This document shows positions 734 through 64,000 of a stretch of 64,000 nt of DNA, in pieces. The notes below the pieces were generated by a model. The model was not told the origin of the DNA. It did no database searches and worked only from the letters and a program-made list of their open reading frames with translations. Position numbers and translations under genes: made by a program. Source of the DNA: Cephalotus follicularis (taxonomy: Eukaryota > Streptophyta > Magnoliopsida > Oxalidales > Cephalotaceae); the NCBI GenBank assembly GCA_001972305.1, contig BDDD01001467.1, forward strand, positions 186,001-250,000. Direction: 5' to 3'. Each line of letters starts with the position of its first letter. The first letter of the stretch is position 1.

Positions 734-1078
734 AATCGACCCTGCCCAGCAAAGACATCGACCTCTAGCCCATAGAAATCGATGTCTTTTGCTTGAGATG
801 TTGCATCATTGGTTTCAGCAGCAAAGACATCGAAGTTTTTCAAAGACATCAACGTCTTTGCCCAGGATTTCTCTTCTTTGAGAAGGACATCGATGCCGAA
901 CATCGATGCGCAATTACAGGGTATTTTTAATGAAACGCGTCGACGCCTTTTCCAAAAGACATCGACGTCTTTAAGCCAGACCTCTATACAAATAGGGAAA
1001 GACATCGATGTCCTTCTACAGTTTTAAAGAAGTTCCCTGCAATGCATCGATGTCTTTCGCCAAAGACATCGACGCCTT
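734..1078 (+). repeat. Palindrome cluster in A, type AAAGACATCGATGTCTTT
   Basis: About ten interspersed copies of a near-palindrome with consensus AAAGACATCGAYGTCTTT occur here, for example at 775-790, 841-860, 955-971, 997-1016 and 1044-1076. Intervening bases are not repeated, so this is not a simple tandem array. One copy (about 935-948) has the variant flank ACGCGTCGACGC. The cluster is 0.65-1.0 kb inside the LTR and downstream of the TATA box, so it should be transcribed. Confidence 0.85.
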
Positions 1079-1326
1079 CAGTGCAGAATGGGTTTTTTAC
1101 TGTTTTAAAAGACGATTTTCAACTCCTTTTCACATCGCCGCTTGACCGGAGCCTCACTTGAGGTATTCAAGCGTTTAAAACACTGTTTTCTATGGTTTTC
1201 AAAGATTGAATCGATGAATTGCTAGAGTGACGGAGTGAGCCATAGGCGACGATCCAGTGATTTTCATCAACCGGATGGACATTTCTTGCCATCTTGTTGA
1301 TTCGATTGTCACCATCTATTAGCTAC

Positions 1327-1350
1327 TGATTGATTGATTGATTGATTGAT
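1327..1350 (+). repeat. (TGAT)6 microsatellite
   Basis: Six exact TGAT units occur inside solo LTR A. TTGATTGATT-like words are scattered through the rest of this LTR, so the microsatellite probably grew from local composition. Confidence 0.95.
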
Positions 1351-3103
1351 TGAGTCATAAGTGCTGTGAGTCTAAGTTTGGAACGTTGGACGCACATTCC
1401 CATTTCTCCCTTAGACATCACCACTTATTGGCATTATACTGACAGATTGATGAATTGTATTGTGTGAATCCTATGGAGCGACCTTATGACTCGCATCGGC
1501 ATGTTAGGTTGTCGACCTTGTCGACCTATTTCATCGATCGCGTCATTTATTGTATTGATCTGTTGACGAGAAGTACCGTTATTGTTTGACGATTGATGCT
1601 TTCGGAGGGTCGTAGCTCCCTAACGGTATAGTAGCTCCTCCATGGTTGTAGCTCATCGATATTGTATTGACCCAGCCATAGGCTGGAAGAGCTATGAGTC
1701 CTAAACCTGATCAGTTTGAGGCAAATGGGTAGATCTCCCACCCTTTTCGAAGGACTACCTTCCGTGGGATCGATCATTTCTATTGATTGACATTGTATTG
1801 ACCCGAGGTCGCATGCTCTATAGGATATGATTGTTTGTTTGGGTGTTTGATACACCACCATTGAGTGTCTGCGATTGATTGATTCTTATAGATCATATCC
1901 ATATGCTCTGTTCTGGACCAGTGACATATGGATAGTAGATTGCCAACTGTATTCATGCATTTTCCATATCATGCATTGATATTGTACACTGCACATTTAT
2001 ATTGTATAAACTATCACCAATACTGCACACTGTACATGCATACATGCTGCATGGGGTTTCTGCTTAGCCTTGTGGCTAACCCCATCCTTCGGGGTGGGGC
2101 TGTGTTGTACTTTTACGTGCGGCATAGGTAGGGCAGCAGGTAGCAGCGGGCAGAATGATTGAAGTTCGGTGCGACCACACGACCGTTTGCTTTTACAGAG
2201 CCGTTCAACAGATCATACCAAGGAGACTGAAGACTTGTATTGTAGGGGAATATATTGAATAAAATGACTGTTTTAGTATTGTAATAGAATAAGTGTTGTA
2301 TTGTAATGACTAGTACTATACCGTTTTGTATTGCATAGATGGACTGCCGTATTATATCTCCCGCATGTGACATGTGCTGAAAAGTTTTAAGTTTTCCGCA
2401 TGTTTATATTGCTAGTCCCGACCATTGTACTGTATATTGGATTGAGTGTAATGCCACGTGTCCGTTCTGCGGGCACGGGGTGTTACAATCTATGACAAGC
2501 ATGGGCACAATTATGGGCTTCTATGAGACGTTATGACTTAAGGTGTGGCCTCCCTCTCTTGTGTAAGAAGAGGGCCGGCCTTGGGAGGAAAAATAGAGAC
2601 TTTGAGTCTCACTTTACACATGTACACAATTGACTTCATTCTCTCCCTCTTTTGGTCGTGCGCTGTGAATCTCCCTCTCTTTCTTCTACATTTCTTCATC
2701 CTCCATTGTTAGCCATTCGAGAAGGAGGCTTGGAGCTTCAAGAAGAAAGAAAACACTCATCTCTTCATATCCTCCCTTTGATCATTATCGATGGAGATAC
2801 ATAGAATCTTCCATTGTATTGTTACTTTTGTTGATCTCTAGTTAGTTCTATATTTATTTTGAGTGTGTTCAAGGAATTTTCGGTCCCCATTGGCAGCACT
2901 TGTACCCAAGGGTTTTTGGAGAAGCTTGGAGCTCAAGGAAGGAGCTTTGGATACTAGAAGTGTTGAGGGATTAAATCTTGAAGGAAGTAATAAAGACTTG
3001 AGGTAATGGCACATTTACATCCTTCTCATCTTGCTTTGTAGTTTCGGGGTTAGCTAGGGTTTTGTAACCCTGGCTGAACCCTTAGGTTTTTTTATGGAAC
3101 CCT

Positions 3104-3126
3104 AACCAAACCCTTAGGGTTTGGTT
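3104..3126. repeat. Inverted repeat with 10-bp arms in element O
   Basis: AACCAAACCC and GGGTTTGGTT are separated by TTA and form a perfect 10-bp-arm hairpin. It lies in a stretch rich in CCCTAA/TTAGGG-like words. No function can be assigned. Confidence 0.7.
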
Positions 3127-3681: not shown

Positions 3682-3830
3682 CAAAGCGCCAACACTTTAC
3701 ACAAAGCGGTGACAATTGGGGTTTTAGGCCAGAGCGTCGACGGTTTATAGTTTAGGCAAAGCATCGACGCTTTAAACATAAGTACCGACGGTTTGACAGT
3801 CTAGACATCAACGTCGAGCTATCAACAATT
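3682..3830 (-). repeat. Palindrome cluster in B 3' LTR, type AAAGCGTCGACGCTTT
   Basis: About seven degenerate copies occur, including AGAGCGTCGACGG near 3731 and AAAGCATCGACGCTTT near 3758. The other LTR carries the matching cluster at 48360-48530, where many CG cores have become TG or CA (for example AAAGCGTTGACGG), as expected of methylated-cytosine decay. Confidence 0.8.
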
Positions 3831-4352
3831 GGAAAATCGATCCCAATTCTGTTTAAACCGTTTAAAACTGGATTCAAAAGAAGCTATAAGCTCCAACGAT
3901 TTATTATAACTTAAAAACAGCTTTAAAACACTAAAATCCAAACCCATAAACCAATAATTGAGAGAGAAAGGAGATTGGAGCTAAATGTCCCAAAACCCAC
4001 TAATCTCTCTATGATCTCCATTCCAATCCGTTATCAATCATAACAATCACCCTAACTCATCCATCTAACATCTGTATATCAATTCATAACCATATCATCA
4101 TGAGATTCAATCACAAAATGAGATTCAAAGCATATATATAGAACCTAACTGCAACTGTTGAAAATGAAGAATGGAAAGGATTTGCTATTGAATCCTATTT
4201 TTGATCCTTCCTTCAAATTCCAAACTCCACCACGAATCCAATAAGCCCTTCCTTCCTCGATTCTGACCTTTCTCTCTCTTTCTACCTCACTCTCTAACTC
4301 TCTCTCTTGAAAGGGGAGGAGAAAATAATGAGAAAAGAGAAAGAGTTAACCG

Positions 4353-7850: not shown

Positions 7851-7879
7851 AAAGCCTGCCCTACACTGTAGGTGTTGAT

Positions 7880-8995: not shown

Positions 8996-9070
8996 GGGTA
9001 TAGAAACTCACCATAGATTGTATTGAACAATTCACTTTAATTAAACAATCATACCTTGATAACCAACGGC

Positions 9071-12107: not shown

Positions 12108-12205
12108 TCGAAGTGTTCTAGTTCTGAACGATTTTGCAGTGTTGAAGTAACCCAGCGCATCGACGTGTTCATATTGCACGTCAACGTGTTCTTCAGTGCC
12201 CAGCA
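12108..12205 (+). repeat. Palindrome cluster in H, left half
   Basis: Copies include GCATCGACGTGTTC (about 12159) and GCACGTCAACGTGTTC (about 12177). The cluster continues at 43250-43540 on the other side of C. The consensus is CACGTCGACGTG to ACGCGTCGACGCGT. Confidence 0.75.
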
Positions 12206-19895: not shown

Positions 19896-22703
19896 TGTAA
19901 CACCCCCGGACGGCGGGAGTGGTCACAGGTCATAATACAGAATCTATCAAAACATAACATAACATATCTGAACAAAAACATAACTTATCAACCAAAAACG
20001 TGGCGGTCATAGCATAACTAAAAACTTAAAAACTTAACAATTTCTGAAAACTTAAACATTTTCCAGTTCAAAACTAAAACACGTGTATCTTATTGTTCAG
20101 ACCACTAAAGAAAAAACATAATGGGATCACACTCCTAGGGATCCGAAACTTAAGGTGGTCATCTCTCGTTCACACATTCCCCCGCTGCTCCAGATAACCT
20201 GCCACATGGAAAACAAAAACGCGGCTGAGCAAACCTCAGTATGGATAATGGAATTAAAATGGTAAACGATAAATTTTAAAAGCAGTAAGATTTCAATAAA
20301 AATTCATAACAAAAATCTTAAGCAATTAAAAACAATTAAATATTCGTAAAATCACATTTGTACTTTCATAAAATCCATATAACTTTTGAAACATTTACGA
20401 AACATTTCAAAACATCATATCACGATTCATAAGTCATATTGAGCCACATACATATCACATAACATATATTTGGCAAGGGAGGCGCTAATTCAACATGCCC
20501 ACTAGAATTGAAGTGTACGGCACTACACAAGTCAATTCTCACATATCGCATATGATATCACATATCATATACTAGAATCGATTCATACGCCTCTATCACA
20601 TAGCGGATCCATAAATCCACCTCATGGGATTTATTCATAAAACTCAGAGACGCCGTAGACTAATCACACCGCTACGGAAGTGTTATGTTCCCATGCCAGG
20701 CCTATGACATGCCTATGGTACGCCCCATGGGTGGGTACAATACTCAGTATTCAATCATTTCGAAAACATTGATTTATCAAAATCAATTTAAGAACACATA
20801 AATATGCTTTCACAAAACATATTTGAAAATCGTTCACAACAATATCATATCATACATTTCATAGCCAAATCATCAACTCATTCATACTTCGCTATAAAGA
20901 GGTGATCATAACATATCGTAACATATCGTATCGTTTCGTATCATATAAATAAAGTCGAAATCATTTATAAATGTCAAAAACCAACTTCATTTTCGAAACA
21001 CGTCAAAACCATAAAACATTACCAATTTCATAACGAAGAGGCATAGCATGAAACAAAACTGAATTGTGTTCGATAACCAGATAGCCAAGGAACGATAGAA
21101 ATCCGTACCTTATGCGTTCACAAAAGCACCTACGGATAGATGATTTAAATCAAACTCTTCTTGAAGCACAACAATCTAAAAGACACCCAAAACCATTCAT
21201 ATAAGGGTCTAAGAAACATTAAAGACATTAAACAGAATTATAACAGTGTTTAGAAAAGACCCAGATTGTTTCGGAGAACAAACGAAGCAAAACAGTTGAA
21301 AACAACACTATTCTGGGCAAAACAGCCGACTGTTACAGAGCACCAGCCGGCCGGGGAAGTTTGGCAGTCGACTAATCACAAGGGCCAGCCGTCTACACAA
21401 ACCAGAATGCAGGCAATCGACTGTCACATTGATCCAGTTGACTGTGCATAACAAGGCAGTCGACTATACAACACAAGGCAGTCGACTGTGTTCATATGGC
21501 AGTCGACTACTCATCCAATCCAGCCGACTGTCCACAAGAACAGCCGACTATTCTGGACGATAGAATAGCAGAAACTTGAAAATTTCATGCAGAAACTGGT
21601 TTAAACGAAAATGACATTAAACCAGAGACACAAGAACATAAACATATGACATAATATGGCATTTAGATGATACAGAAACACATAATTGACATAGGAATAT
21701 CTAGACAGTGGCTTAACTTCCAAGAGAAAGCAAGAAGAACATTTACATGTGCATACAAATATGTCCAGATTCCTGTCCATTATCATTTGCAGACTTTTAA
21801 AACCAGTTTGTGACAAGTCTAGGTATACAAACATGCTGACAGACTTACTAACACCATGACGGAACATATATACGCAGGAAATCAAAACTTAAAGGACATT
21901 AAGAACAAAACAAAAGACAAAGTGAAACAAATCATTACAGTGAATTTACTAACCTGCAATGATTGTCCAGAACACAGAAAACACAGCAAGAACACCACAA
22001 TTTTACTGGTTAAACAGCTGTGCAGAAGGGAAGCCAAAGAGAACCAAAAACAAGGAGATACATAACTATGCTTATCAAACTAGAAGAATTCAACCCAAAA
22101 GAACAACCAAAGGATTGAGATTACCTCTTGAAACTTGAGGAAACGATTTCACAGCAGGTTACACAGGCTTCATAGTGCAACTTCGGCAGTGGCACTTAAC
22201 AGAAAAGAGAGACACATTTAAAATGGCAATGTCACTCTCCAAAAGGAAAAAGAGAAGACAAAATCTGCCCACATATGGAAGAAGAGGAGACAAGAATCAG
22301 TTTATTAAGGAAGAAAAGGATTGAAAATGTGTAGAAATAATGAGGGGAAAGAGAGAGCTTCGGGAGAGGAGGGGAAGAAAAGGAAAGAAATGAAAAAAAA
22401 AGAAATAAAGGAATAAAGAAATAAAGAAATAAAATACAAGAAATAATAGGAATTAAGGAATTTTAAAATAAAAAGAAAGTAAATTGTTTTAATAAAATAA
22501 GTTGCATTTTAATAAGATAGATAGCAGCCCAAACCCAACATTGCACTACATATCCAAAAATTTCAGGCTGGTATCAGACAGCCCAAATCACATAGGCCCA
22601 AGACAAAAGGGCAACCAGACTTTAAAATTAAACAAAATTAAAAAGGCCGAAAGCAAACACATAAAAAGTCCTTAAAACACATACGAACAAGCAGGGTATT
22701 ACA
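19896..22703 (-). repeat. 3' LTR of G (2,808 bp)
   Basis: It begins TGTAACACCCCCGGACGG and ends GGGTATTACA, and pairs with 27803-30603 almost base for base. It holds the conserved block with a variant hairpin near 20710, a palindrome cluster at 21318-21556 and a purine-rich stretch at 22320-22450. No gene is visible inside; open frames here are not conserved. Confidence 0.95.
21318..21556 (-). repeat. Palindrome cluster in G 3' LTR, type CAGTCGACTG
   Basis: Eleven copies are recognisable, including CAGTCGACTG near 21479, CAGTCGACTA near 21456 and 21500, and CAGCCGACTG near 21322 and 21521. It has one unit fewer than the other LTR (29210-29460): the 20-bp unit carrying CAGTCGACTTGTTCATCGGG is absent. 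Confidence 0.92.
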
Positions 22704-27802: not shown

Positions 27803-30603
27803 TGTAACACCCCCGGACGGCGGGAGTCGTCACAGGTCATAATACAGAATCTATCAAAACATAACATAACATATCTGAACAAAAACATAACTTATCAGCC
27901 AAAAACGTGGTGGTCATAGCATAACTGAAAACTTAAAAACTTAACAATTTCTGAAAACTTAAACATTTTCCAGTTCAAAACTAAAACACATGTATCTTAT
28001 TGTTCAGACCACTGAACAGAAAACATAATGGGATCACACTCCTAGGGATCCAAAACTTAAGGTGGTCATCTCTCGTTCACACATTCCCCTGCTGCTCCAG
28101 ATAACCAGCCGCATGGAAAACAAAAACATGGCTGAGCAAACCTCAGTCCGGATAAGGGAATTAAAACGGTAAACGATAAATTTTAAAAGCAGTAATATTT
28201 CAATAAAAATTCATAACAGAAATCTTAAGCAATTAAAAACAATTAAATATTCGTAAAATCACATTTGTACTTTCATAAAATCCATATAACTTTTGAAACG
28301 TTTACGAAACATTTGAAAACATCATATCACGATTCATAAGTCATACTGAGCCACATACATATCACATAACATATATTTGGCAAGGGAGGCGCTAATTCCA
28401 CATGCCCACAAGAATTGAAGTGTACGAGAATACACAAGTCAATTCTCGCATATCACATATCATATACTAGAATCGATTCATATGTCTCTATCACATAGCG
28501 GATCCATAAATCCACCTCATGAGATTTATTCATAACACTCAGAGACACCGTAGACTAATCACACTGCTACGGAAGTGTCATGTCCCCGTGCCAGGCCTAC
28601 GACATGCCTATGGTACGCCTCATAGGTGGGTACATTACTCAGTATTAAATCATTTCAAAAACATTGATTTATCAAAATCAATTTAAAAACACATAAATAT
28701 GCTTTCACAAAATATATTTGAAAATCGTTCACAACGATATCATATCATACATTTCATAGCCAAATCATCAACTCATTTATACTTTGCTATAAAGAGGTGA
28801 TCATAACATATCGTAACATATCGTATCATATAAATAAAGTCGGAATCATTTATAAATGTCAAAAACAAACTTCATTTTCGAAACGCGTCAAAACCATAAA
28901 ACATTACCAATTTCATAACGAAGAGGCATAGCATAAAACAAAACTGAATTCAGTTCGATAATCAGATAGCCAAGGAACGATAGAAATCCATACCTTATGC
29001 GTTCACAAAAGCACTTATGAATAGATGATTTAAATCAAACTCCCCTTGAAGCACAACAATCTAAAAGACACCCAAAACCATTCATATAAGGGTCTAAGAA
29101 AAATTAAAGACATTAAATAGACTTATAACAGTGTTTAGAAAAGACCCAGATTGTTTCGGAGAACAAACGAAGCAAAACAGTTGAAAACAACACTTTTCTG
29201 GGCAAAACAGCCAACTGTTACAAAGCCCCAGCCGACTGGGGAAGCTTGGCAGTCGACTGGTCACAAGGGCCAGCCGACTACACAAACCAGAATGCATGCA
29301 GTCGACTGTCACATAGATCCAGTCGACTGTGCATAACAAGGCAGTCGACTTGTTCATCGGGCAGTCGACTACACAACACAAGGCAGTCGACTGTGTTCAT
29401 ATGGCTGTCGACTACTCATCCAATCCAGCCGACTGTCCACAAGAACAGTCGACTGTTCTGGACGACAGAACAGCAGAAACTTGACAATTTCAGGCAGAAA
29501 CTGGTTTAAACGAAAATGACATTAAACCAGAGACACAAGAACATAAACATATGACATAATATGGCAATTAGATGATACAGAAACACATAATTGACATAGG
29601 AATATCTGGACAGTGGCTTAACTTCCTAGAGAAAGCAAGAAGAACATTTACATGTGCATACAAATATGTCCAGATTCCTGTCCATTATCATTTGCAAACT
29701 TTTAAAACCACTTTGTGACAAGTCTAGGTATACAAAACATGCTGACAGACTTACTAACACCATGACAGAACATATATACACAGGAAATCAAAACTTAAAG
29801 GACATTAAGAACAAAACCAAAGACAAAGTGAAACAAATCATTACAGTGAATTTACTAACCTGCGATGATTGTCCAGAACACAGAAAACACAGCAAGAACA
29901 CCACAATTTTACTGGTTAAACAGCTGTGCAGAAGGGAAGCCAATGAGAACCAAAAACAAGGAGATACATAACTATGCTTATAGAACTAGAAGAATTCAAC
30001 CCAAAAGAACAACCAAAGGATTGAGATTACCTCTTCAAACTTGAGGAAACGATTTCACAGCAGGTTACACAAGCTTCATAGTGCAACTTCGGCAGTGGCA
30101 CTTAACAGAAAAGAGAGACACATTTAAAATGGCAATGTCACTCTCCAAAAGGAAAAAGGGAAGACAAAATCTGCCCACATATGGAAGAAGATGAGACAAG
30201 AATCAGTTTGTTAAGGAAGAAAAGGATTGAAAACGTGTAGAAATAATGAGGGGAAAGAGAGAGCTTCGGGAGGGAGGGGAAGAAAAGGAAAGAAATGGGA
30301 AAAAAAAGAAATAAAAAGAAATAAAGAAATAAAATAAAAGAAATAATAGGAATTAAGGAATTTTAAAATAAAAAGAAAGTAAATTGTTTTAATAAAATAA
30401 GTTGGATTTTAATAAGATAGATAGAAGCCCAAACCCAACATTGCACTACATATCCAAAAATTTCAGGCTGGTATGAGACAGCCCAAATCACATAGGCCCA
30501 AGACAAAAGGGCAACCTGACTTGAAAATTAAACAAAATTAAAAAGCCCGAAAGCAAACACATAAAAAGTCCGTAAAACACATATGAACAAGCAGGGTATT
30601 ACA
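27803..30603 (-). repeat. 5' LTR of G (2,801 bp)
   Basis: This is the partner of 19896-22703, with the same termini. Sequence differences are few and scattered, plus small indels, so insertion is recent relative to C and B. It contains the palindrome cluster at 29210-29460 and the conserved block at 28490-28635. No gene is seen. Confidence 0.95.
29210..29460 (-). repeat. Palindrome cluster in G 5' LTR, type CAGTCGACTG (12 units)
   Basis: Twelve units occur in 250 bp: CAGTCGACTG five times, CAGCCGACTG twice, and single CAGCCAACTG, CAGCCGACTA, CAGTCGACTT, CAGTCGACTA and CTGTCGACTA. Spacing is about 15-30 bp and spacer sequences are mostly unrelated. This is the densest and cleanest cluster of this type. 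Confidence 0.95.
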
Positions 30604-30937: not shown

Positions 30938-31150
30938 ATCAGCGCTTTATCTAGAACAAAGCCGAAAGCATCGACTCTTTCTAGCATAAGCGTCAACGTT
31001 TTTCAGGACACATGCAACATTTAAACATTTTAAAAACTCAAACTTTGAGGACAGAGCGTCAATGCTTTACAGAACAAAGCAGGATTATGCACAATTGAGG
31101 GAAGGCGTCGACTTTTTGATGAAACAAAGGGGTAAGGCGTCGGCGCTTTA
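30938..31150 (-). repeat. Palindrome cluster in D, type AAAGCGTCGACGCTTT
   Basis: Copies include AAAGCATCGACTCTTT (about 30965), AAGCGTCAACGTTTTT (about 30988), AGAGCGTCAATGCTTT (about 31053), AAGGCGTCGACTTTTT (about 31103) and AAGGCGTCGGCGCTTT (about 31134). CG-to-CA changes are evident. Confidence 0.78.
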
Positions 31151-34571: not shown

Positions 34572-34687
34572 AACAGTCGACTGTCCTCAAGAATAGTCGA
34601 CTGATTGGTGGAGTAGTCGAGTGCTTTGTCTCAGCAGTCGACTGGATTGGGTTGAGTAGTCGACTGCCATGAAGAACAGTCGACTGC
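34572..34687 (-). repeat. Palindrome cluster 2 in E 3' LTR
   Basis: Six copies occur in 115 bp: CAGTCGACTG twice, TAGTCGACTG twice, and CAGTCGACTG and TAGTCGAGTG variants. The matching cluster in the other LTR is at 40042-40157, and in F at 55888-55980. Confidence 0.9.
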
Positions 34688-35726: not shown

Positions 35727-35810
35727 CCAGTCGACTGCATTCACTTCGCAGTCGACTGCCATACCACGCATTTAGACAGTCGACTGCCCCCATGTGGCAG
35801 TCGGCTGTCA
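35727..35810 (-). repeat. Palindrome cluster 1 in E 3' LTR
   Basis: CAGTCGACTG occurs three times and CAGTCGGCTG once. On the element strand this cluster lies upstream of the TATA-like site, unlike cluster 2. Its copy in the other LTR is at 41197-41280, with decay (CAGTCAACTG, AAGTCGACTG). Confidence 0.9.
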
Positions 35811-38858: not shown

Positions 38859-41443
38859 TGTCAAACCCTGATTTTTGGTTCCATTTCATTAAGACAAGCA
38901 TATATGGTGATATCAGAATTAAACATAACATTCCAGCATTTCATTCAACAGTTCATTAAATAATATGCGGAAGCAGTCAATAAGCCGGAATATAAAACAC
39001 AAGTCGTCCGCACGTAGCCCGTACTACGTGCAGGTAATTCAACATAAATATCCTTACATAAGGAAGTACGATATCAACGGGGTATGAACCGTTCAATACA
39101 ATACCACATCATAAAAGAAAAACAACAACCTTCAGTTGAAAGTAGAAGCTCTCCAAGCTTCTGCAGCGACTCCAAGTCTTCGCTTAATCTGAAACTGTAA
39201 GGGGGTTAGCCGTTGTCCTCACTTGGCTAAGTAGGAAGATAATGCATGCTAAGGAATATATGAATGCAACAAGTATGACAGTTTATATTTGAAATAGCAT
39301 TTAAATGTGCCAATATATAAGCAAACATGCCAAGTGTCCATAGACAATCCATATGCAAGAATACCGCACAAGGGTACAATCAATCAGTCCAGTGGTTTGT
39401 CCGAAGACTAGTATTGGGCTCAAGACGCCGCTAACCCCTAGCCTACGTCGAGCCACCTAGCTATCACCCCAAACTCCGCTGATGATAGGAGGTAAACAGT
39501 GCTGCCGGCATTTAGCGGGCAGATAACAGTGCACGGTCTGCAATGCAGATCAGTATGGTGAATAAGCACTAGCCAACTCCTGGAACGTAGGCTCACCGCC
39601 GTAATCAGTGATATCTTCCCATCACTCGACCACGGTATGCATAGAAAATCAATCAGTCAATTCAGTTCAATAATATCACATATATATATGATATGCAATA
39701 TAAAATGTTTTCTTTAGAAACATATAACATTTCAGTGATCGTACATCTCATGTGAGGAAACGATATCAGTACAGTAGTGGTTTCCAATTCAGAAACAAAC
39801 AGTAGGTGATAAAACAGTAGTTGATAAATCAGTAGTTTCTTGTATATAATAGTTTTCATTTGAAAGTGATGGCTAAACCATGAATTGTGCATATAGCACA
39901 TAGTTCGTTCAATCGTTGCAATATAAGTAGTAGCGATGTTAAATAACATCAAACAGTATATACTATATGATGGTAGCATATACAATTCAATAACAGTACA
40001 AGACAGTAACAATTCAATCAATGTTATGCAATTTTACCCAGAACAGTCGACTGCCCTCAAGAATAGTCGACTGCTTGGTGGAGTAGTCGACTGCTTTTTC
40101 TCAGTAGTCGACTGGATTGGGTTGAGTAGTCGACTGCCATGAAGAATAATCGACTGCTCCTGCCCAGAAATGCAGGCAGTAGCAGTTTGTATGCAATTCA
40201 ATGTCCTATTTCACACATGAAATCATATAGAAAATGACATACATGATATGCATAAAATATCTTCCATAACATATCACTATCCCTACCTCAATAGCTTATC
40301 CCAAGATCAATTGGAGTGATCTATCTCTTTGAGTTTCCAAAGACTTTCAACAAAAATCCTTCAATCCAGCAGGTTCAATCTATGCATGCATGTTTTAGGG
40401 ACACATGCATTAGCACCAGGAAGTTCAATAACCTTAAGACAACTATGATCTAACAGTAGTTACTCTCTAGATCATTAGGCCTCATGACTATCCCCTTTTT
40501 CCATATATCTATGAACCTTGTCAATTATCTTTCTATACCAGGTTCTTTCATGTTGAAAATGTGGACAGAAGATATATGCATACTTAAGGGAATCAATAAG
40601 CATATTTTAGACATTGACAACAACTATAAACCAATTAGAGTTGTTAAGATTCTCTGAGCTTGTGTCCATATTCTTACTCCCATATTACCATTTCAATTCC
40701 ATTCTAGAACTGTTAATCCTTTGCCATGTTAACAGAAGATAACGAACCTTCTTAGATACATTATTAACAGTACTACATAAGCAGGGAGTTCGAATTTGGA
40801 ACTTACCAGGAAGAATCCAAGCTCCAAGTCTCCTTCTTTGAGCTCCTTAATTCCTTCAAAAGCAAGCCTTCACCAATTCCAGCAATTCCCTCAATCTTCA
40901 GTGTTTTCTAACACTCACCTCACAACTCATCAGCTGATATAGGGTCTCAAAGACTTTTGAATTCGTCAGATTCCTTCAGTCACATGCACTTCTCTTTCTT
41001 GTCCTTCTCTCCTTCTATCTCTTCTCACCTTTCTCTTCTTTCCATTCTGTTTTGCAGGTTGCAGGAGGATAGAAGACATGCAAGCATGCCTTTTGCATGC
41101 TCTGGCCGCTGGTGATCTCGTGCAACACCTGTCCCCCATGCAATGCCCCCTTGGTTCAGTCACACAGACGTGCACAGACACCTATTATGTACAGATCCAG
41201 TCAACTGCATTCACTTAGCAGTCGACTGCCATACCACGCATTTAGAAAGTCGACTGCCCCCATGTGGCAGTCGGCTGTCAATGGTTGTTTTAGGGTTTCT
41301 TAAGTTTGATACTTTACCAAAATTGCATCTCCATTCATCCCAAGCAATTACCAATCACAAAATTGGACAAATAATCCAATTAAAATGTATATTTATTTTA
41401 AACATGGAATCAATATACATTAATTGAATTTGCGGTTATTACA
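38859..41443 (-). repeat. 5' LTR of E
   Basis: It starts TGTCAAACCCTGA and ends GGTTATTACA, and has exactly the length of its partner. Clusters of CAGTCGACTG palindromes lie at 40042-40157 and 41197-41280. No gene is visible. Confidence 0.95.
40042..40157 (-). repeat. Palindrome cluster 2 in E 5' LTR
   Basis: Five clear copies (CAGTCGACTG, TAGTCGACTG three times, TAGTCGACTGG) and a decayed TAATCGACTG at 40147 occur. The spacing equals that of 34572-34687. Confidence 0.9.
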
Positions 41444-42105: not shown

Positions 42106-43249
42106 ACTGGGCGACATAATACACAATTCTAACAATCCTCTGCAAATTTCTTGTCAAAACCTGGATTTCTCATTACCAGAGGGTCACAAACCTTTCAACA
42201 AGACTATATGAGGTAATTAGAATGGTAACAGAACATAGAATTAACATTAGTGTATAAACAGTGGCTAAACTCAAAGAGAGTGAGACAAAAACTAAACAAT
42301 TGCTTACATATCAAGATAGCTAAGGTACTATCAAATTTACCAACCACCAATCATTAAAACCAGATTATCACTTATGTATGACGCCTAAGGGCTGATCTAC
42401 AGACTCAGAAACAGAGACAAAGCATAGAGTGACAGGAATCAAAAAGGACATACTAACAGCCTATATGAACATGCAACCAGATTGTAACCAAAACAAAAAT
42501 AAACTATTACAGTTAAACAAGAGACTAACATGCAATGGCAACACAAACACTGCAGAAGGAACACAACAATTCCAGTGACTTACACGGCTGTTCAAACGAA
42601 TAGGAGAAAAGAGGACATACGGCTTCAAAGCTTATTCACGGAGTATACAATAAAACAAACCCATCTAACAGTAGAATCATAAAGCACAAACCTGATTTTG
42701 ATGAAACAAACGTATGAAGAACACAACAGATTCCTAGCTTTGCCAAAAAAAAAACGGCAGTAACCGTGCAAGTGAGGAGAGAATAGCATAAAACCATGGC
42801 ATTGGCATTCTTTAAACAGAAAAAGAAGGCCAAAATAGGAAGGGATAAGGTAAGAGAGATCAAAATCTGATAGGATAGGAAAAAGGGATAGAAAATTCAG
42901 GATTGAGGGGTAGAAAGAAGGAAGAGAATCGGTGATAATGAGAGAAGAGAGGAAGAAACATACGGGAGAGGGAGAGAAGAATAAGAGAAGGAATAAGTTT
43001 TGTCCCAAAATTAGTTATTTATTTCCTAATAAAATATTTTTACCATATTCATATTTAAAACCAATTTAAAATATGAAACAATAAATTTTACTTATCCATA
43101 ATCATATTCCAAACAATATACCAAAGCCCAAAGATGGTATCACATAGCCCAAAACATAAGAGCCAAAAAATCAAAATAGACCAACAATATTACAAAACAA
43201 ACTAAAAGCCTGAAAATATGCACATCAACAAACGGGGTATTACACAGCA

Positions 43250-43540
43250 CGTGAACGTTCAGTTTGAACGTCGACGCGTTATGTGATCCCTTGCATTTTT
43301 ATGCACTAATCAACGCAACATGTCGACGCGAATCATCGACGTGCAACGCACAACATTAAGTGCACATAGCATGATGATGCGCATCATTGCAGTGCAACAC
43401 ATAGCATCAAGGCACAACTTTCACGTCAACGCGTGACCTTGGGGTATTGCTTACACGTTGACGCGTAGTGTTGGACTTTGACGTGTTATGTGTTCTCAAC
43501 GCCCAACACATCGATATGCTGCATAAGCGTCGATGCCCAG
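43250..43540 (+). repeat. Palindrome cluster in H, right half
   Basis: It has GAACGTCGACGCGTTATG (43280), ATGTCGACGCGAA, CATCGACGTGCAACG, CACGTCAACGCGTGA, ACACGTTGACGCGTA, ACACATCGATATGC and AAGCGTCGATGCCC. The left half ends at 12205, where C inserted, so C landed inside the cluster. Confidence 0.8.
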
Positions 43541-48268: not shown

Positions 48269-48856
48269 AGGAAAGCTTCCTATAGAACCCATTTGAAGAT
48301 AAAAGAGTTCGGGGTTGAAAAGAGGATGAAAACATAGCATTTTATATAAAACAGTGCAACAAAACACCGACACTTTAGACAAAGCGACGACAGTTAGGAT
48401 TTTAGGCCAAAGCGTTGACGGTTTGAGCAAAGCGTCAACAACTTAGAGTTTAGGCAAAGCGTTGACGATTTAAATATAAGCGCCAACGGTTTGACAGTCT
48501 AGACATCTACATCGGGCTGTCACCAGTAGGAAAATTGAACCAAATTCCCTTTAAACTATTTAAAACTCGGTTCAAAGGAAGCTAGAAGCTCCAATGGTTG
48601 ATTATAACTTAAAAATAGCTTCAAAACACTAAAATCCATACCCATAAACCAATAATCGAGAGAGAAGGGAGATTGGGGCTAAATGTCCCAAAACTCACTA
48701 ATCTCTCTCTGATCTCCATTCCAATCCATTATGAACCATAACAATCACCCTAACTCATCCATCTAACATGTGTATATCAATTCGTAACCATACCATCATG
48801 CGGTTCAATCACAAAATGAGATTCAAAGCATATATATAGAACCTACCTACAACTGT
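48269..48856 (-). repeat. 5' LTR of B, segment 3, with decayed palindrome cluster
   Basis: It matches 3597-4156. The cluster at 48360-48530 mirrors 3682-3830 with more CG loss (AAAGCGTTGACGG, AAAGCGTCAACAA, AAAGCGTTGACGA). No gene is seen. Confidence 0.87.
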
Positions 48857-53045: not shown

Positions 53046-54241
53046 TGTTCACGAATTTTGAATGTTTTAAATTTGTATCGCAAGTGCACGATTGTGCAGT
53101 AATGGGTCAAACGCTAAGAAACAAGCTAAATAAATTTTAATCTATCCATCCTAGGAAAAAAGTATGCAATCTTGAAGGAATATTGAACTAACAAGAATGA
53201 CGCATGCAAAATTATGAATTATCAAAGCAGTAAATAAAACCGGATAAAATATGCAAGACAAAATCGGTTTTAGGATATAGAAACTCACCATAGATTAAAT
53301 TGAACAACTCACTTACTTGATTCATCAGACCTTGGTAACCAATGGCATCTAGGTCAATACAGAGTGCGACTGTGATGACAAATCGTTTGAGTAGTCATGC
53401 TAGGTCTATACATAGTGTGACAGCAGCGAAAAATCATATGAGTAGACATTCAATGTATATACGGAGTGTGTTCGGCGTGACAAACCGTATGAGTAGACTC
53501 CATTGATTGCGTTAAAAACCATTCATTCAACAACGTTCTTATTCAATGACAAAGTATTTGTGGATTTTAATCAGACAGACAAAGTGTGTGTAAAGGCAAA
53601 AAATTGAAGAACAAATCAAAAGTTCAAGGATTTTATTGATGGAGTTGAATCAATACAATCTAGGATTTGTTCTAACCATAAAAACCTTGAGAGTTTAGCT
53701 ACTAAACATTATAATAAAGCTACAAAAATTGTAGAAGAAGGAGGCAGCTACTTCTCTCTACTCTCTACTGCTTATGGCCGACTATTATTTATATATATAC
53801 ACTTACAAAACTGATTAAAAATGGAAATAAAGTTAACCTAATTACAAAGCTAACAAAAATCTAAAACTTTCTGATTTTGTTGTCAGGCGTAAGCATCGAC
53901 ACTTATGTTCTTAGCATCGATGGTTTGCTGCTTTGACGTGAACATGTTCCGCACTTTATTTGTTAAGCGTCGACGGTTTAGTACAAAGAGTTGTGGAGTT
54001 GCTCTACACGGCTTAAGCATCGATTCTAAAGTGTAACCCATCAGCGCTTTAGAATGTCTGAGCTGAGAGTCGACGCTTAAGGAATGCACTTCGATTGTTA
54101 AGCTTCTGTACCAAAGCGTTGAGGCTTTAATCTTAACTGCTGGCACTTTGTGTCTAAGCGTCGACGCTTATGTTGAAGGCGTCGACGCTTAACTCTGTTT
54201 TTCTGCAGAAATTTGTCATTCTTCAGGATTTGATCTTTTAT
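53046..54241. mobile_element. Element M: LTR segment related to L, cut by N
   Basis: It begins TGTTCACGAATTTTGAATG after CCAAG and shares CGCAAGTGCACGATTG (53073), ATCGGTTTTAGGATATAG (53264) and the ~56-bp units (53347-53500) with L. A TATATATATA stretch lies near 53795. It carries a palindrome cluster at 53886-54195 that L lacks. N interrupts it at 54242; the rest, and the right TSD, are beyond F and K outside the window. Confidence 0.75.
53886..54195. repeat. Palindrome cluster in M, type TTAAGCGTCGACGCTTAA
   Basis: About twelve copies occur, including TAAGCATCGACACTTAT (53890), TTAAGCGTCGACGG (53966), TTAAGCATCGATTCTAA (54013), GAGTCGACGCTTAA (54067), TAAGCGTCGACGCTTAT (54157) and AGGCGTCGACGCTTAA (54177). 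Confidence 0.88.
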
Positions 54242-54600
54242 TGTAATATCCAAAAATTCTATTTTATGCACTTTGAAATTCTCAGTGTAATTTTTCATGA
54301 ATTAATGAGAAATGATGGATTTTTTCTAGCATAATGTTAAATGTTTAATGAAGAAAGTTGTGGTGATTGAAAATGTTGGCATTTTGACCTAAAGCGTCGA
54401 TGCCCAGAATCAAGGCGTCGGTGTCATGAAAACAAAACACGCGTTTAAGGCTCACACGCTTAAAGCGTCGATGGCAGAGATAAGCGTCGACGCCAATACA
54501 TGCACAAGGTTAAGCGTCGATGCCCACGACATAACCGATGATGCTTGGTCTGTCTGACAGCACATATGCGCTAAGTGTCCACCATTTTCTTCAAGAGAGA
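54242..54600 (+). mobile_element. Element N: LTR start, cut by F
   Basis: It begins TGTAATATCCAAAAATTC after TTTAT (54237-54241). Only 359 bp precede the F insertion. A palindrome cluster (54392-54560) includes AAAGCGTCGATGCCC, AAGGCGTCGGTGTC, AAAGCGTCGATGG, TAAGCGTCGACGCC and TAAGCGTCGATGCCC. The remainder is outside the window. Confidence 0.65.
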
Positions 54601-54748: not shown

Positions 54749-54828
54749 CAGCTGACTGTCACAAGGGAACAGTTGACTGTCTGATGCGTGGTATGACAGT
54801 CGACTGCCTGTTGAAGACAGTAGACTGG
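54749..54828 (+). repeat. Palindrome cluster 1 in F LTR
   Basis: CAGCTGACTG, CAGTTGACTG, CAGTCGACTG and CAGTAGACTG correspond to 35727-35810 of E. It lies upstream of the TATA-like site. Confidence 0.85.
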
Positions 54829-55887: not shown

Positions 55888-55980
55888 GCAGTCAACTGTT
55901 CTTAATGACAGTCGACTGTTAAGACAAAACAGTCGACTGCTCAATTAAAACAGTCGACTATTCTTGAGAACAGCCAACTG
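55888..55980 (+). repeat. Palindrome cluster 2 in F LTR
   Basis: CAGTCAACTG, CAGTCGACTG twice, CAGTCGACTA and CAGCCAACTG are spaced 19-23 bp apart. It corresponds to 34572-34687 of E. Confidence 0.9.
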
Positions 55981-56487
55981 TCCTGGGCTAAAGTTCTGAT
56001 ATATGTCATGTTCAGAACTTAATTTGAATTGCTACTGTCTTGCCACTGTTTTTGTATATGCTACTGTTAATTAGTATATATTAATGATTGTTATAAACCC
56101 TATTGTTCCATATTTCCGAATATTGAACAAACTATGTGCTATATGCACAATTCATGATATTATCTATCATTTCAAATGAAAGCTTATTGTTAAAAAGAAC
56201 TACTGATTTTCCTCCTATGAGAGGTAACCACTATTTTGCTTCCCAAACTGGAAACCACTATTGTATTGATATCATTTTCCTCCTATGAGATGTACGGTCA
56301 TTGAATTGTTATATGTTTCTAAAGAAAACACTTGATATTGCATATTATATATATATGTATTATTATTGAACTGAAATGATTGTCTTTGTTATTGCCGATG
56401 AGTCGAGTGATGGCAGATGTCACTGGCTAACGGAGGCGTTCCTATGTGCCAGGAGTTGGCTAGAGTACACACCCAAAACTGTTTGTA

Positions 56488-57019
56488 TCGCAGATCTTAT
56501 TTGTTAAACTGCCAGCTAATGCCGGTAGTAATTGTTACTTGATCTATCATCTTCGGAGTGTAGGGTGATAGATAGGTGGTGCACAGTCGGTGTTAGGAGA
56601 TAGCGACGTGTGACACCCAAACCACAATATGAATTGATTGTACCCTTGTGCGGTATTCTTGCATTGTATTGTCTATGGCCACTTAGCATGATTGCTTATA
56701 TATTGGCATACTTAAATGATATTTTAAAAATAAACTGTCATACATGTTGCATCCATGTATTCCTTAGCATGCATTATCTTCCTACTTAGCCAAGTGAGGA
56801 CAACGGCTAACCCCTACAATTTCTGATTAAGCGAAGACTTGGAGTTTGCTGCTGGAGCTTGGGGAGCTTCTATTTGTCACCTTAAGATTGTTATTTTATG
56901 ATGATGTACTGTATTTCTAATGAACGGATCATACCCCGTACTCTGTTGTACTTTCCTTATGTAAGGATAATTGTTGGATTATGCCTGCACGTAGTTTGGG
57001 CTGCGTGCGGATGACTTGT
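56488..57019 (+). repeat. 532-bp direct repeat, copy 1 (F LTR)
   Basis: Identical to 57866-58397 except for three substitutions seen by eye; the offset is a constant 1,378 bp. It includes the block GACAACGGCTAACCCCTAC also present in E. It flanks J on the left. Confidence 0.95.
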
Positions 57020-57865
57020 GTTGACGATTAAGTCCCAATCCTTGTTTTGATGATAACATATTTGCATCTAACTAAGTTACTTGATGTTCAAGGAATTACA
57101 AGTTGAATATCAAAGTCTAAAACCATTCTGCAGAAAAAGAAGTCGACTCCTTTCCAATAGCATCGACTCCTTTTGTAACAGAATTAACTGCAAGGAAAAC
57201 ATCTACCTCCCAGTTATAGCATCGACGTCCGTACCAAAAGAAGTCGACCACTTCCAGAAGACGTCGACTACATTCAAGAAGACATCGACTACTTCCAAGA
57301 ATACATCGACGGGTTTAGTCATTTTTGGAACAGAAGCTACTGTCTGAGAAATGCACTCAAAGACATCGATCCTCAGAGAAAGACATCGACGTCCAAGAGA
57401 AAGACATCGACGCCTTTTTATAGAGATCAACGACATTTTCATCATACCCAGAAAAAGCATCGACACCAGCTAAAGAGGTCGATGCGACATTCAACCTGGA
57501 GTTTCGCAGAAAAGACATCGACGCCTTTCAGAAAGAAGTCGACGCCTTTTCAAATAGACAACACCCGGGAAAGCTGGAACGGCTAGATCAACCACTTCCA
57601 ACGGCTACCAAGTAAAAGACATCGACTCCTTTAGAAAAGAAGTCGACGCCTTTTCAAGAGAACAAGAACCGGGAAAGCTGGAACCTTAATCAAATCGAGC
57701 TAGTGGAAACTCAAGGAGCTCCCTTGGGAAAAGTGGACGTAGGCAAGAGTTAGCCGAACCACTCTAAAACTCGGAGAAGTTTTTTCTTTCCTTATCTCTT
57801 TAAATTTAAAGTTTTTAAATTTCTGCATATTCCTCAATATTCAATTCACCCCCCCTCTTGTATAT
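57019..57865 (+). mobile_element. J: truncated Copia-like (SIRE/Maximus-type) LTR fragment
   Basis: It starts TGTTGACGATTAAGTCCC followed by TTGTTTTGATGATAACATAT, a pattern usual at the start of SIRE/Maximus Copia LTRs. It ends with ATTCAATTCACCCCCCCTCT, usual near the 3' end of such LTRs, but without a CA terminus. The right end runs straight into a second copy of upstream F sequence, sharing TTGTAT at the junction. It holds 17 TCGA-core motifs (57137-57660). The Copia assignment rests on these two patterns only. Confidence 0.7.
57137..57660 (+). repeat. Palindrome cluster in J, type AAAGACATCGACGCCTTT / GAAGTCGACTCC
   Basis: Seventeen motifs occur, such as AAGACATCGACGCC (57403), AAGACATCGACGTCC (57382), AGACGTCGACTAC (57260) and GAAGTCGACGCC (57536, 57641). 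The flank type is that of solo LTR A (AAAGACATCGACGCCTTC at 1061), although A is gypsy-like. Confidence 0.9.
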
Positions 57866-58397
57866 TCGCAGATCTTATTTGTTAAACTGCCAGCTAATGC
57901 CGGTAGTAATTGTTACTTGATCTATCATCTTCGGAGTGTAGGGTGATAGATAGGTGGTGCGCAGTCGGTGTTAGGAGATAGCGACGTGTGACACCCAAAC
58001 CACAATATGAATTGATTGTACCCTTGTGCGGTATTCTTGCATTGTATTGTCTATGGCCACTTAGCATGATTGCTTATATATTGGCATACTTAAATGATAT
58101 TTTAAAAATAAACTGTCATACATGTTGCATCCATGTATTCCTTAGCATGCATTATCTTCCTACTTAGCCAAGTGAGGACAACGGCTAACCCCTACAATTT
58201 CAGATTAAGCGAAGACTTGGAGTTTGCTGCTGGAGCTTGGGGAGCTTCTATTTGTCACCTTAAGATTGTTATTTTATGATGATGTACTGTATTTCTAATG
58301 AACGGATCATACCCCGTACTCTTTTGTACTTTCCTTATGTAAGGATAATTGTTGGATTATGCCTGCACGTAGTTTGGGCTGCGTGCGGATGACTTGT
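57866..58397 (+). repeat. 532-bp direct repeat, copy 2 (F LTR)
   Basis: See 56488-57019. After this copy the F LTR continues normally (TTTTATATTCTGGC) to 58534, as E does. Confidence 0.95.
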
Positions 58398-58538
58398 ATT
58401 TTATATTCTGGCTTACTGAATGCTTCCGCATATTGTTTATGAATTGTTGTATGGATGCTGGAATATTACATTTAATTTCTGATATCACCATATATGCTTG
58501 TGCCTATTTGGAATTGGGAAGGCGGGGTGTGACAAGCA

Positions 58539-59846: not shown

Positions 59847-59859
59847 ATCTACTACTGTT

Positions 59860-62486: not shown

Positions 62487-63125
62487 TGTAACGCCCCGAA
62501 TTTCATAAATAATTATTTTGAAATTGGTGCGTGTACAGTCGTGATAAAATCGATAGAGTCCAGAGTAATAAAAAGGCATTACGCATTTAAGTCGTAATCG
62601 TGTTAGCTAAGACGGCTCCCAAATGTTCGCATTTTTATTGCGATTATTTTGTTGGTTGTTTGGATAATTTATGTCAGGATTTGCGGAAAAATCGGGACCC
62701 GTACCTTAGTATTTTACCAGAAAATACTAAAAAGAAAGCAAAATAACGAACAATAAAGGAAGGAAGAAGGGGAAACACGGGCGCATAGCGCGCCCGTGCG
62801 TGTTACCTGCAGGGAGAGAGAGACAGGGCAAGAGTGCAAGAGAGATTGGGAGAGAGATCGGAGCAGAGGGAGAGAGAGCGCGCCGGAGCTACCCACCGGA
62901 CCAGTGGACGACGGCGAGCAACCCAGGCCCTCAACCCGCCGGTAAGCCCTTCCCCCTCCTCCTCTTTTCTCTTCTTTTTCCTTTGTTCCCCGCCACTGCC
63001 GCGCCTTCTCCCGGCATTTCCCGGCGCCGTTAGCGTCGCGGGTGGGGTGGGTTTTAATCTAGAGGACCCGCTCTTCCCATTTCGGCCACCGGTGAGGCGT
63101 GATTCGGCCGGAAACGGCCGGAATC

Positions 63126-63310
63126 AGTTGAATGAGTCGACTCAGTGAGTCGACTCACTGTCGCCTTGGACCGCGAGTTTAGCGCCGAGTCTTGGCGAGT
63201 CACGGGCATGGGTGTGTATAACTGATGGATATGTGACGTTTTTGGGTGGTGATCAGACCTGTGGAGGTCCAGCGAGTTGACTTAGTGAGTCACGACTCAC
63301 TGCCGGACGT
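63126..63310 (+). repeat. Palindrome cluster in K, type TGAGTCGACTCA
   Basis: AATGAGTCGACTCAGTGAG (63131) and GTGAGTCGACTCACTG (63146) are near-perfect and adjacent. GCGAGTTGACTTAGTGAGTC and ACGACTCACTGCC follow at 63268-63303. Confidence 0.85.
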
Positions 63311-63785
63311 GGCGCGGCATTCGGCGCCGATTCCCGGCGAGTCTTGACCGGTTCTGTGTACACCGTTCAATGTGGAACCCGTTGATGGGTGTTTCATCGC
63401 CTGGTTGTGTCAGTCAGAATCCGGTCAGCGTTTCGGTGACGGAAATGTTTTGTGTGTCGAACATAACGGAAATGTGTTGTATGTGCAGTGTGTAAGCGGC
63501 AATTGGATTTGGCATCGAGGAATTGATCAATTGGCGAGAACCGGCTTTGGTTCAACGATTATCGAAAAGGTTCGGCAATTGAACGTGCAGCTCGACTGTA
63601 CGGTTGTTACCGCTGTAACAGGTAGGGGAAGCTATACATGCAAGTTTGAGTTCAATAATATTGTAATGCCATTGATGAATGGTTTACGGATTTGAATTGT
63701 GTGTCTGTGTTAGGGTTGCTATGAATAGATCACCTGTCTGCATATTGTGTTTCGAGACGTGTTGAAGGAACCGTGTTTTGGTTCG

Positions 63786-64000
63786 CTTAACCGTCGACGC
63801 TTAGGAAAGAAGCGTCGACGCTATGGATTGTTATACGAATAATGAGTCATGATTCGCGATAAACGTCGATGCCATGATTCGTCGTGTGTGAGAATGGACA
63901 CGTGTGCTGTTGACGCCTGAGGTTCCTACCTCAGAGCATCGACGCCAAAGGGATGAGATGTTGATGCGTAAAGTTTCTGGTTGGAAGCGTTGACACTAAG
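63786..64000 (+). repeat. Palindrome cluster in K, type AAGCGTCGACGCTT
   Basis: TTAACCGTCGACGCTTAG (63787), GAAGCGTCGACGCTATG (63809), AAACGTCGATGCCATG (63862), GAGCATCGACGCC (63936) and GAAGCGTTGACACTAAG (63983) occur. It continues beyond the window. K thus carries two types. Confidence 0.88.

Follow-up and report, generated by a model that had tools for sequence, protein, structure and literature searches.

TCGA-centred palindromes form regularly spaced arrays in LTRs of plant Ty3/gypsy elements and may act as cis-regulatory platforms

A stretch of 64,000 nt from one plant, Cephalotus follicularis (contig BDDD01001467.1, positions 186,001 to 250,000; hereafter the window), was found to be a nest of plant Ty3/gypsy elements, in whose LTRs and candidate LTRs short palindromes centred on TCGA are clustered. 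The palindromic units are symmetric, frequently stand about 21 bp apart and are more conserved between related families than the spacers that separate them. From these observations we infer that the arrays are probably, though by no means certainly, phased cis-regulatory platforms of these elements, to which a symmetric, probably dimeric, DNA-binding protein of the host would bind. Each unit would be a two-fold symmetric putative binding site with the core RTCGAY, and its repetition every 21 bp or so, about two turns of the helix, with a 28-bp step now and then, could allow the protein to load side by side. Once loaded, the protein may activate transcription of the element or set its timing, or may hold the promoter region open. 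The whole evidence base is this one window from one plant. Little is understood of how the LTR promoters of the large, genome-filling gypsy families of plants work. A defined unit, a defined step and a map of kept bases provide a short list of probes (CAGTCGACTG, CAGTCGGCTG and AAGCGTCGACGCTT) with which to search for the protein by which these promoters are driven or restrained.

Enrichment and clustering of TCGA palindromes

Window-wide counts were compared with 200 dinucleotide shuffles in 1-kb blocks. TCGA occurs 240 times (164.8 in shuffles, sd 11.4) and is the centre of 62 palindromes of 8 bp (11.2, sd 3.4) and of 32 palindromes of 10 bp (2.8, sd 1.7). When the 16 palindromic 4-mers were compared over 100 shuffles, TCGA reached a z of 15.3 for 8-bp palindromes and of 26.5 for pairs located 19-22 bp apart, whereas the next best cores reached 2.4 and 5.4, respectively. 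The TCGA palindrome clusters claimed in a preliminary description of this DNA were thus borne out, and shuffled sequence did not attain the same density.

The 20 array stretches (4,131 bp, array D left out) hold 51 of the 62 8-bp and 28 of the 32 10-bp palindromes, two of the 62 lie in the gag-pol stretches (14.1 kb), and GTCGAC was counted 53 times in the 20 stretches versus five times in the remaining 60 kb; these in-array enrichments are partly circular, as the list of arrays is that of the preliminary description, while the window-wide shuffle tests are free of this circularity. The CpG observed/expected ratio is 1.04 in the arrays and 0.64 outside, at an array GC content of only 0.476, and CpG other than in TCGA amounts to 33.6 per kb in the arrays versus 22.9 outside.

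Two classes of units were distinguished, which have different arms and a common TCGA centre. The core is RTCGAY, surrounded by AG/CT or CR/YG. The arrays are the following:

Array A, 734..1078, + strand (presumed sense), 11 listed units of class 2 (AAAGACATCGACGTCTTT type), candidate LTR
Array B1, 3682..3845, unstranded, 5 listed units of class 2 (AAGCRTCGACGGTT type), steps 20, 28, 27, 21, candidate LTR
Array B2, 48360..48490, unstranded, five units with 0 intact TCGA cores (TTGA, CCGA, CCAA, ACGA)
Array H, left part, 12108..12205, unstranded, broken up by the insertion of element C
Array H, right part, 43248..43540, unstranded
Array C1, 14199..14405, - strand, 10 units of class 1, in the C LTR 12206-15395
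Array C2, 41903..42105, - strand, 10 units as in C1, in the other C LTR, a 4-bp deletion cutting one core
Array G1, 21323..21550, - strand, 11 units of class 1, in the G LTR 19896-22703
Array G2, 29208..29458, - strand, 12 units of class 1, in the G LTR 27803-30603, steps 21,21,21,28,21,22,20,22,21,21,20
Array D, 30938..31150, unstranded, decayed class 2 units, two intact TCGA
Array E1, 34574..34686, - strand, 6 units of class 1, in the LTR 33390-35973
Array E2, 35728..35807, - strand, 4 units of class 1, steps 21,28,21
Array F1, 40044..40156, - strand, 6 units of class 1, in the LTR 38860-41443
Array F2, 41198..41277, - strand, 4 units of class 1, steps 21,28,21
Array M, 53886..54195, unstranded, 9 listed units of class 2 (AAGCGTCGACGCTT)
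Array N, 54392..54560, unstranded, 5 listed units of class 2
Array J0, 54749..54827, + strand, 4 units of class 1, steps 21,27,21, positional homologue of E2/F2
Array J1, 55889..55980, + strand, 5 units of class 1, positional homologue of E1/F1
Array J, 57137..57660, + strand, 16 listed units of class 2, in the 843-bp block 57023-57865
Array K, 63126..63165, unstranded, pair of adjoining GAGTCGACTC palindromes with centres 13 bp apart
Array K2, 63786..64000, unstranded, class 2 units, reaching the end of the window

In the curated list, the units per LTR number 11-12 for G, 10 for C, 10 each for E and F (in two arrays), 16 plus 9 for J, 11 for A, 9 for M and 3-5 for B, N and K2. The hand-curated lists, from which H, D and K are left out, drop chance arm matches (e.g. 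21309, 21406, 21572, 29194, 29401, 29477, 35708, 41178, 48543, 54453, 63770 and 63990) and the TCGA sites 903, 3814, 3837, 54091, 54745, 57695, 63752 and 63939. Added to them were one cut unit (42018) and TCGA sites without an arm-search match, eight of these in J and others at, for example, 736, 890, 29408, 34617, 40150, 54468 and 63866. For G, the described 12 units within about 250 bp are present, but the TCGA core is intact in just 8 of the 12. In D (30938-31150) two TCGA were found and several units have decayed, whereas the B copy at 48360-48530, likewise described as a TCGA cluster, has no intact TCGA left.

Host elements and LTRs

Pfam searches of element G identified gag, reverse transcriptase, RNase H, an integrase zinc domain, SH3_Tf2-1 and, after the integrase, a chromodomain (PF00385, E 3.7e-6, in a 42-aa frame at 22761-22886). 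G is therefore a Ty3/gypsy chromovirus, the single element so verified, and presumably belongs to the Tekay lineage. J has matches to gypsy-type gag, protease and pol, and its pol shares 88% identity with Cephalotus follicularis across 76% of the query. Among the ORFs of at least 150 aa, 6 of 11 were scanned with Pfam, which yielded gag, protease or pol in five and no match in one.

The preliminary description placed clusters in almost every long LTR. This stands for the LTRs whose status was checked, which are those of C, G, E and F together with the 5′ one of J; the clusters A, B, D, H, K, M and N lie in candidate LTRs, and the weak clusters I and Q are putative arrays. Clusters C and I had been listed as separate, but C and part of I belong to one LTR (12206-15395). 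The second copy of this LTR is in pieces (16878-18087, 33085-33393 and 41437-43242), and CAGCA flanks both copies on their outer sides. Some LTRs hold two or three arrays, and that of J contains both unit classes. The block of its large array is bracketed by a 535-bp duplication.

Spacing of the units

Across the window, and without any selection of sites, 42 TCGA pairs are 19-22 bp apart versus 2.0 expected. Spacings of 20-22 bp make up 37 of the 77 between adjacent in-array TCGA sites and 50 of the 78 in the curated list, which includes decayed units and leaves out G1, C1, F1, F2 and B2 as duplicates. A second step lies near 28 bp (27-30 bp in 8 of the 78 curated spacings), and some gaps of about 50 bp in G and M correspond to 21 + 28. 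The lengths of G1 and G2 differ by 20 bp, which is one unit, and those of C and G by about 42 bp, which is two.

In all seven arrays tested, spacers of one array were more alike than shuffled ones (0.35-0.56 versus 0.29-0.37, p ≤0.016). Tandem duplication therefore accounts for part of the regular spacing. Several arrays were called by TRF as repeats of 20-22 bp.

Same-face helical phasing was considered as the whole rule, as 21 and 42 bp are two and four turns, but the 27-30-bp step does not fit. With the 24 curated spacings of at least 27 bp, a period test yielded an R of 0.60 at 10.5 bp, and its best value in the range 9.8-10.8 bp was matched by 0 of 5000 jittered sets; this test was set aside because spacings are shared among related arrays and the phases cluster away from zero. 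Nor does 28 bp correspond to an integral number of helical turns, which counts against a platform.

Conservation between families and decay after insertion

Families were compared by calling the units in one and scoring them in its relative, with circularly shifted masks as control. Between C and G, the identity of units was 0.81 and 0.79 and that of spacers 0.50 and 0.54. For E/F versus J, units reached 0.85 and 0.86 in array 1 and 0.91 and 0.92 in array 2, with spacers at 0.53 and 0.55 and at 0.69 and 0.79, respectively. These are three alignments of related copies inside one window, and the shifted masks equalling the observed value were 1 of 247, 1 of 248, 1 of 112, 0 of 92, 0 of 79 and 0 of 58. 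Spacers were less conserved than flanks in five of the six tests, the exception being 0.79 for spacers versus 0.76 for the DNA outside. Because units outlast both spacers and flanks between families, the proposal that the elements keep a cis-acting array is supported.

The spacer likeness left inside the arrays and the TRF repeats are what neutral relics would leave behind, that is, tandem repeats of 21 bp born by slippage and palindromic by chance. However, slippage alone would not retain units while the spacers diverge beyond the flanks, nor would it yield a common TCGA core and step across differing arms, and we consider this origin quite improbable.

After insertion, the arrays decay like other DNA. 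At CG sites compared between copies, 25 were kept, 17 deaminated and 7 otherwise changed in the arrays, and 99, 70 and 16, respectively, outside. The five copy pairs were G, C (in part), E/F, B (a candidate LTR pair) and I (outside counts only), and their CG sites did not reveal the slower array decay of an unmethylated island. Copy-to-copy identity was lower inside the arrays than outside in all four array-bearing pairs. This speaks against a role retained at these particular copies, and the like decay of units and other DNA suggests that selection acts on active elements and not on these copies.

The arrays also resemble those of VANDAL transposons, whose non-coding DNA holds short motifs in dense, family-specific arrays that gain and lose repeats (PMC5735166). 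By analogy with VANC, the element or a partner element might encode the motif reader of an anti-silencing platform, and the two unit classes in the J LTR would suit such a reading. Nevertheless, beyond gag, protease and pol no known gene was seen among the 6 of 11 ORFs scanned, and CG loss after insertion is equally high in the arrays and in the rest of the compared copies. This makes an element-encoded reader hardly likely, and we favour a host protein.

Constrained bases within the units

We mapped substitutions in 72 class 1 units, a set that includes homologous copies. Changes were seen in 7 of 288 cells at the inner A, G, C and T and in 27 of 144 at the outer C/G. Of the transitions at the two CHG sites, 24 fell on the outer bases and two on their inner partners. 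Auxin ARF sites (TGTCGACA) were tried as a match and rejected: nearly every unit has an A or a C, and not T, two positions ahead of the core.

CBF/DREB-type AP2 proteins might instead read the platform through RYCGAC, which would make the elements responsive to cold or drought. CRT/DRE elements are asymmetric sites of host promoters, whereas the window units have symmetric arms, stand in dense arrays and, in the case of ATCGAT units, lack the RYCGAC hexamer. In addition, a monomeric AP2 domain does not require constraint on both arms, and class 1 units are constrained on both, which argues against a lone AP2 monomer. The four RYCGAC members are nonetheless the most enriched of the 16 NNCGAC hexamers (GTCGAC 143-fold, ATCGAC 38, GCCGAC 19 and ACCGAC 4; at most 3.1 for the remaining 12), a ranking that is partly built in, as arrays were picked on GTCGAC/ATCGAT and GCCGAC is one transition from GTCGAC. 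RYCGAC (PLACE CBFHV) was counted 94 times in the 20 array stretches, none of which lacks it; PLACE gives it as the site of barley CBF1 and CBF2, and GTCGAC (CRTDREHVCBF2) as the preferred HvCBF2 sequence (PMC4222965). The LTRs of tomato Rider likewise carry cis-elements matching host stress motifs, but these have been described as individual sites of several kinds and not as phased arrays of one palindrome, and Rider transcription was reported to be unaffected by cold despite a CBF site in U3 (PMC6762207). A CBF/DREB reader thus appears unlikely to us, and a symmetric host protein remains our preferred candidate.

Position relative to promoters and RNA folding

The location of the arrays relative to the promoter varies among the elements, a further point against a platform. 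Within the LTR, the array occupies 1139-1399 of 2801 in G and 986-1197 of 3190 in C, and the E/F arrays lie at 162-249 and 1284-1404 of the 2584-bp LTR. A TATA-like TATATAAG at 237 is followed by a CT-rich stretch, and array A lies about 490 bp downstream if the + strand is sense. The J block, too, is preceded by a TATA-like site, the array of G stands between TATA-like sites, and a TATA-like cluster on the - strand is located 94-100 bp to the left of array M. The earlier argument that a cluster upstream of the TATA-like site speaks against an RNA role is therefore not general, given A and G.

At the RNA level, units might pair within or between element genomes, for dimerisation, packaging or translation control, and the downstream positions of A (with + as sense) and of the J block would fit. 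Folding was much stronger than in shuffles for all five array stretches (z -4.1 to -5.5) and not for the two LTR controls (1.4 and -0.3), although repeated palindromes of any kind fold well, so that these z-scores are not independent evidence. Pairing has no need of a 21-bp step, and this spacing favours a role as DNA. Moreover, the core variants that are commonest apart from deaminations, with 18 A to G and 5 T to C, disrupt one side of the dyad. The excess of A to G would suit G-U wobble, but all 18 fall in the related families G and C, and C-to-T changes, which wobble tolerates, are about equal to G-to-A changes, which it does not (14 versus 10 at the outer pair, 8 versus 7 at the central CG). 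We therefore hold an RNA role to be improbable compared with a DNA-bound protein. That the arrays fold strongly as RNA does count against a platform.

Relation to Sirevirus palindromes

The preliminary description was aware of no report of such an LTR component, but palindromic repeated motifs (RMs), some with TCGA cores, have been published for the LTRs of Sireviruses, where an element has 8 or more and as many as 32 (Bousios et al. 2010, PMC2829016). TCGA is the core of 2 of the 13 RMs, CGGTCGACCG of Vitis and ACAATCGATTGT of Tnd-1, and all published RMs except that of Tnd-1 (12 of 13) have a CGG-CCG core signature (PMC2829016). RM boxes are also the subject of Bousios et al. 2016, as cited in PMC5311732 and PMC10760457. 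RM boxes as published in PMC2829016 and the window arrays have in common high-copy palindromic units that are clustered in LTRs, CpG-rich and variable in their arms between elements. Clusters of RM boxes are characterised by forming a CpG island and by a place in the upper LTR half, ahead of a conserved TATA box. Here at least 8 palindromic copies per element, the number used for Sireviruses, are present in G, C, E, F, J, A and M. Sireviruses are, however, Ty1/copia elements, whereas G and J are Ty3/gypsy; the CGG-CCG signature is absent from the RTCGAY core, and several arrays per LTR and the 21/28-bp step set the window arrays apart from the RM boxes of the published text. A word search of the main text of PMC2829016 found no statement on unit spacing. 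Palindromic LTR arrays are thus already known, and the novelty lies in their occurrence in gypsy elements, in the RTCGAY core and in the 21/28-bp spacing.

A wider reading, which we put forward tentatively and think doubtful, is that TCGA dyads at 21- and 28-bp steps are a shared LTR grammar. A cooperative protein family would read them, with the arms setting the class, array modules would be gained, lost and swapped, and gypsy and copia (Sirevirus) elements would be convergent. The same data offer a way to ask if copia and gypsy converged on one host factor. Among the matches listed in literature searches, none was recognised by title and start of abstract as dealing with arrays of palindromes in the LTRs of gypsy elements, and no relevant title was seen among the 15 listed of 29 papers with CAGTCGACTG; PMC6911290 deals with palindromes at which LTR elements insert, and PMC3601003 with LTR structure.

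A tblastn search confirmed no pol relative in viral contigs, and a pattern scan of these contigs returned 10 stretches. Five pol relatives were found in genome contigs, which were taken without regard to LTRs and so provide no test: L011, L012 and L013, which match most of the query, have 0 TCGA pairs at 19-22 bp, L014 has one and L015 two.

Regularly spaced palindrome arrays in gypsy LTRs

The window holds nested LTR retrotransposons of the plant Ty3/gypsy type, and five of the six long open frames scanned matched gag, protease, RT, RNase H or integrase families. Element G carries SH3_Tf2-1 and a chromodomain in its tail, in two adjacent frames, and is therefore a chromovirus. For the pol frame of element J, the closest organism-labelled matches among the 120 listed of 7979 were a pair of proteins from Cephalotus follicularis, 88 and 87% identical across 76% of the query. 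LTR ends were located for G, C, E/F and J, as listed below; for the remaining arrays (A, B, D, H, K, M and N) a position within an LTR is putative.

19896-22703 and 27803-30603: LTRs of G, ATTAA flanking both sides
12206-15395, other copy split into three pieces ending at 43242: LTR of C, CAGCA flanking both sides
33390-35973 and 38860-41443: LTRs of E/F, flanks ATACG/ATACA
about 54601-58534: 5′ LTR of J, start placed by similarity to F, followed by a PBS-like TGGTATCAGAGC

The preliminary description had noted clusters of TCGA-centred palindromes in almost every long LTR and had held that their density, as in G, is not due to chance. An excess beyond chance was borne out in our sample of one window from one plant, with arrays partly chosen by that description and copies that are related: such palindromes of 8 and 10 bp were 5.5-fold and 11.6-fold above 200 dinucleotide shuffles, respectively. 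When 16 palindromic cores were compared, 8-bp palindromes were in large excess for TCGA only (z 15.3; runner-up 2.4). Furthermore, 39 RTCGAY sites opened a 200-bp window with at least four RTCGAY, compared to a mean of 0.08 and a maximum of 2 in 100 shuffles.

TCGA sites in arrays (n=96) were preceded by G (65%) or A (34%) and followed by C (77%) or T (18%), whereas the 144 sites outside showed no such flank preference (purine before in 50%, pyrimidine after in 57%). The palindromic units fall into two classes, which differ in both arms around a constant TCGA centre. Class 1 units (CAGTCGACTG) were found in C, E, F, G and the J arrays J0 and J1, whereas class 2 units read AAGCGTCGACGCTT or AAAGACATCGACGCCTTT and occur in arrays A, B, H, M, N and K2 as well as in the J block (57023-57865). 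Units of the A and J-block types are frequently imperfect beside the core (ATCGAC).

The units also keep a preferred step, a spacing absent from the preliminary description: 42 TCGA pairs lay at 19-22 bp, where 2.0 (sd 1.6) were expected. Adjacent TCGA sites in arrays were 20-22 bp apart in 37 of 77 cases; in a hand-made list including decayed units, 50 of 78 spacings were 20-22 bp and eight were 27-30 bp. The arrays of G and C, whose surroundings are about 61-62% alike, have a common step order of about 21, 21, 21, 28, 21, 22, 20, 22, and the second array of E, F and J (E2, F2, J0) has steps of 21, 27-28 and 21. Since the spacers within each of the seven arrays tested were somewhat alike, the regular spacing may partly be a trace of tandem duplication.

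Units are constrained between families

Related LTRs of different families were aligned, and the units defined in one family were used to score the other. Identities are given below.

C vs G: units 0.81 and 0.79; spacers 0.50 and 0.54; outside 0.61-0.62
E/F vs J, array 1: units 0.85 and 0.86; spacers 0.53 and 0.55; outside 0.71-0.72
E/F vs J, array 2: units 0.91 and 0.92; spacers 0.69 and 0.79; outside 0.75-0.76

In all six tests, at most one position of the unit mask, when slid around the array, reached the observed value. Between families, much of the spacer sequence is lost and spacer length is mostly kept.

Among 72 class 1 units, which include homologous copies and are thus not 72 independent trials, the inner A, G, C and T were nearly invariant (changed in 7 of 288 cells), the core T/A tolerated C/G, and the outer C/G often became T/A. 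In CAG/CTG, the outer and inner bases are parts of one symmetric CHG site, and equal decay is expected under methylation. The 24 transitions at outer bases vs 2 at inner bases therefore argue for selection on the inner ones.

Within the compared copies, deaminated CG sites were as common in arrays (17/49) as outside (70/185), and identity was lower in the arrays than in the rest in all four pairs holding arrays. The constraint thus belongs to active elements and not to these dead copies.

Candidate binders and alternatives

Symmetric units, constraint on both arms, a preferred step and freely changing spacers would be compatible with side-by-side loading of a dimeric DNA-binding protein on the units. 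Because the scanned frames showed no gene other than gag-pol, a host transcription factor is the simplest candidate. The RYCGAC hexamer of the units matches the barley CBF site in PLACE (PMC4222965); however, this match is weakened by the way the arrays were chosen and by the constraint on both sides of the unit, and we consider a CBF-type site unlikely. Five arrays fold with z-scores from -4.1 to -5.5, unlike two LTR control stretches, and a TATA-like site lies upstream of array A if the plus strand is sense; action at the RNA level, to which both observations would point, seems to us unlikely.

Related motifs and other repeats

PMC2829016 describes palindromic repeated motifs in Sirevirus LTRs, reported absent from classic Ty1/copia elements, and TCGA cores in 2 of 13 published motifs; in maize these motifs are small-RNA hotspots (as cited in PMC5311732 and PMC10760457). 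Our arrays are similar in look but differ in two marks of membership, superfamily and core signature. Among the matches listed from the open-access literature, none was recognised that reports arrays of this kind for gypsy LTRs or a 21/28-bp step.

A 23-kb IMG/VR viral contig (L004:58-860) holds 15 AGTCGACT palindromes within 800 bases at irregular spacing, 12 of them in the form TAGTCGACTA. Assemblies labelled Mycobacterium sp. and Streptomyces clavifer (L011, L012) contain gypsy pol 56-59% identical to J, probably plant contamination of bacterial genomes.

In the J LTR (56488-58400), a 535-bp stretch is present twice (99.3% identical), flanking an 843-bp block with a class 2 array of 16 units; the related LTRs of E and F lack this block in the alignment. 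The J LTR therefore has the look of a recent mosaic, with a second array module acquired. Segments 8905-9448 and 53182-53722 are 81% identical, each holding a 51-54-bp tandem repeat, the latter directly left of array M; the pair may represent a promoter or a leader in the M family. A long AC-rich simple-repeat tract (31424-31850) has higher-order units of 35 and 82 bp, and a 36-bp tandem repeat at 50501-50763, distinct from the palindrome arrays, has higher-order units of 67 and 103 bp.
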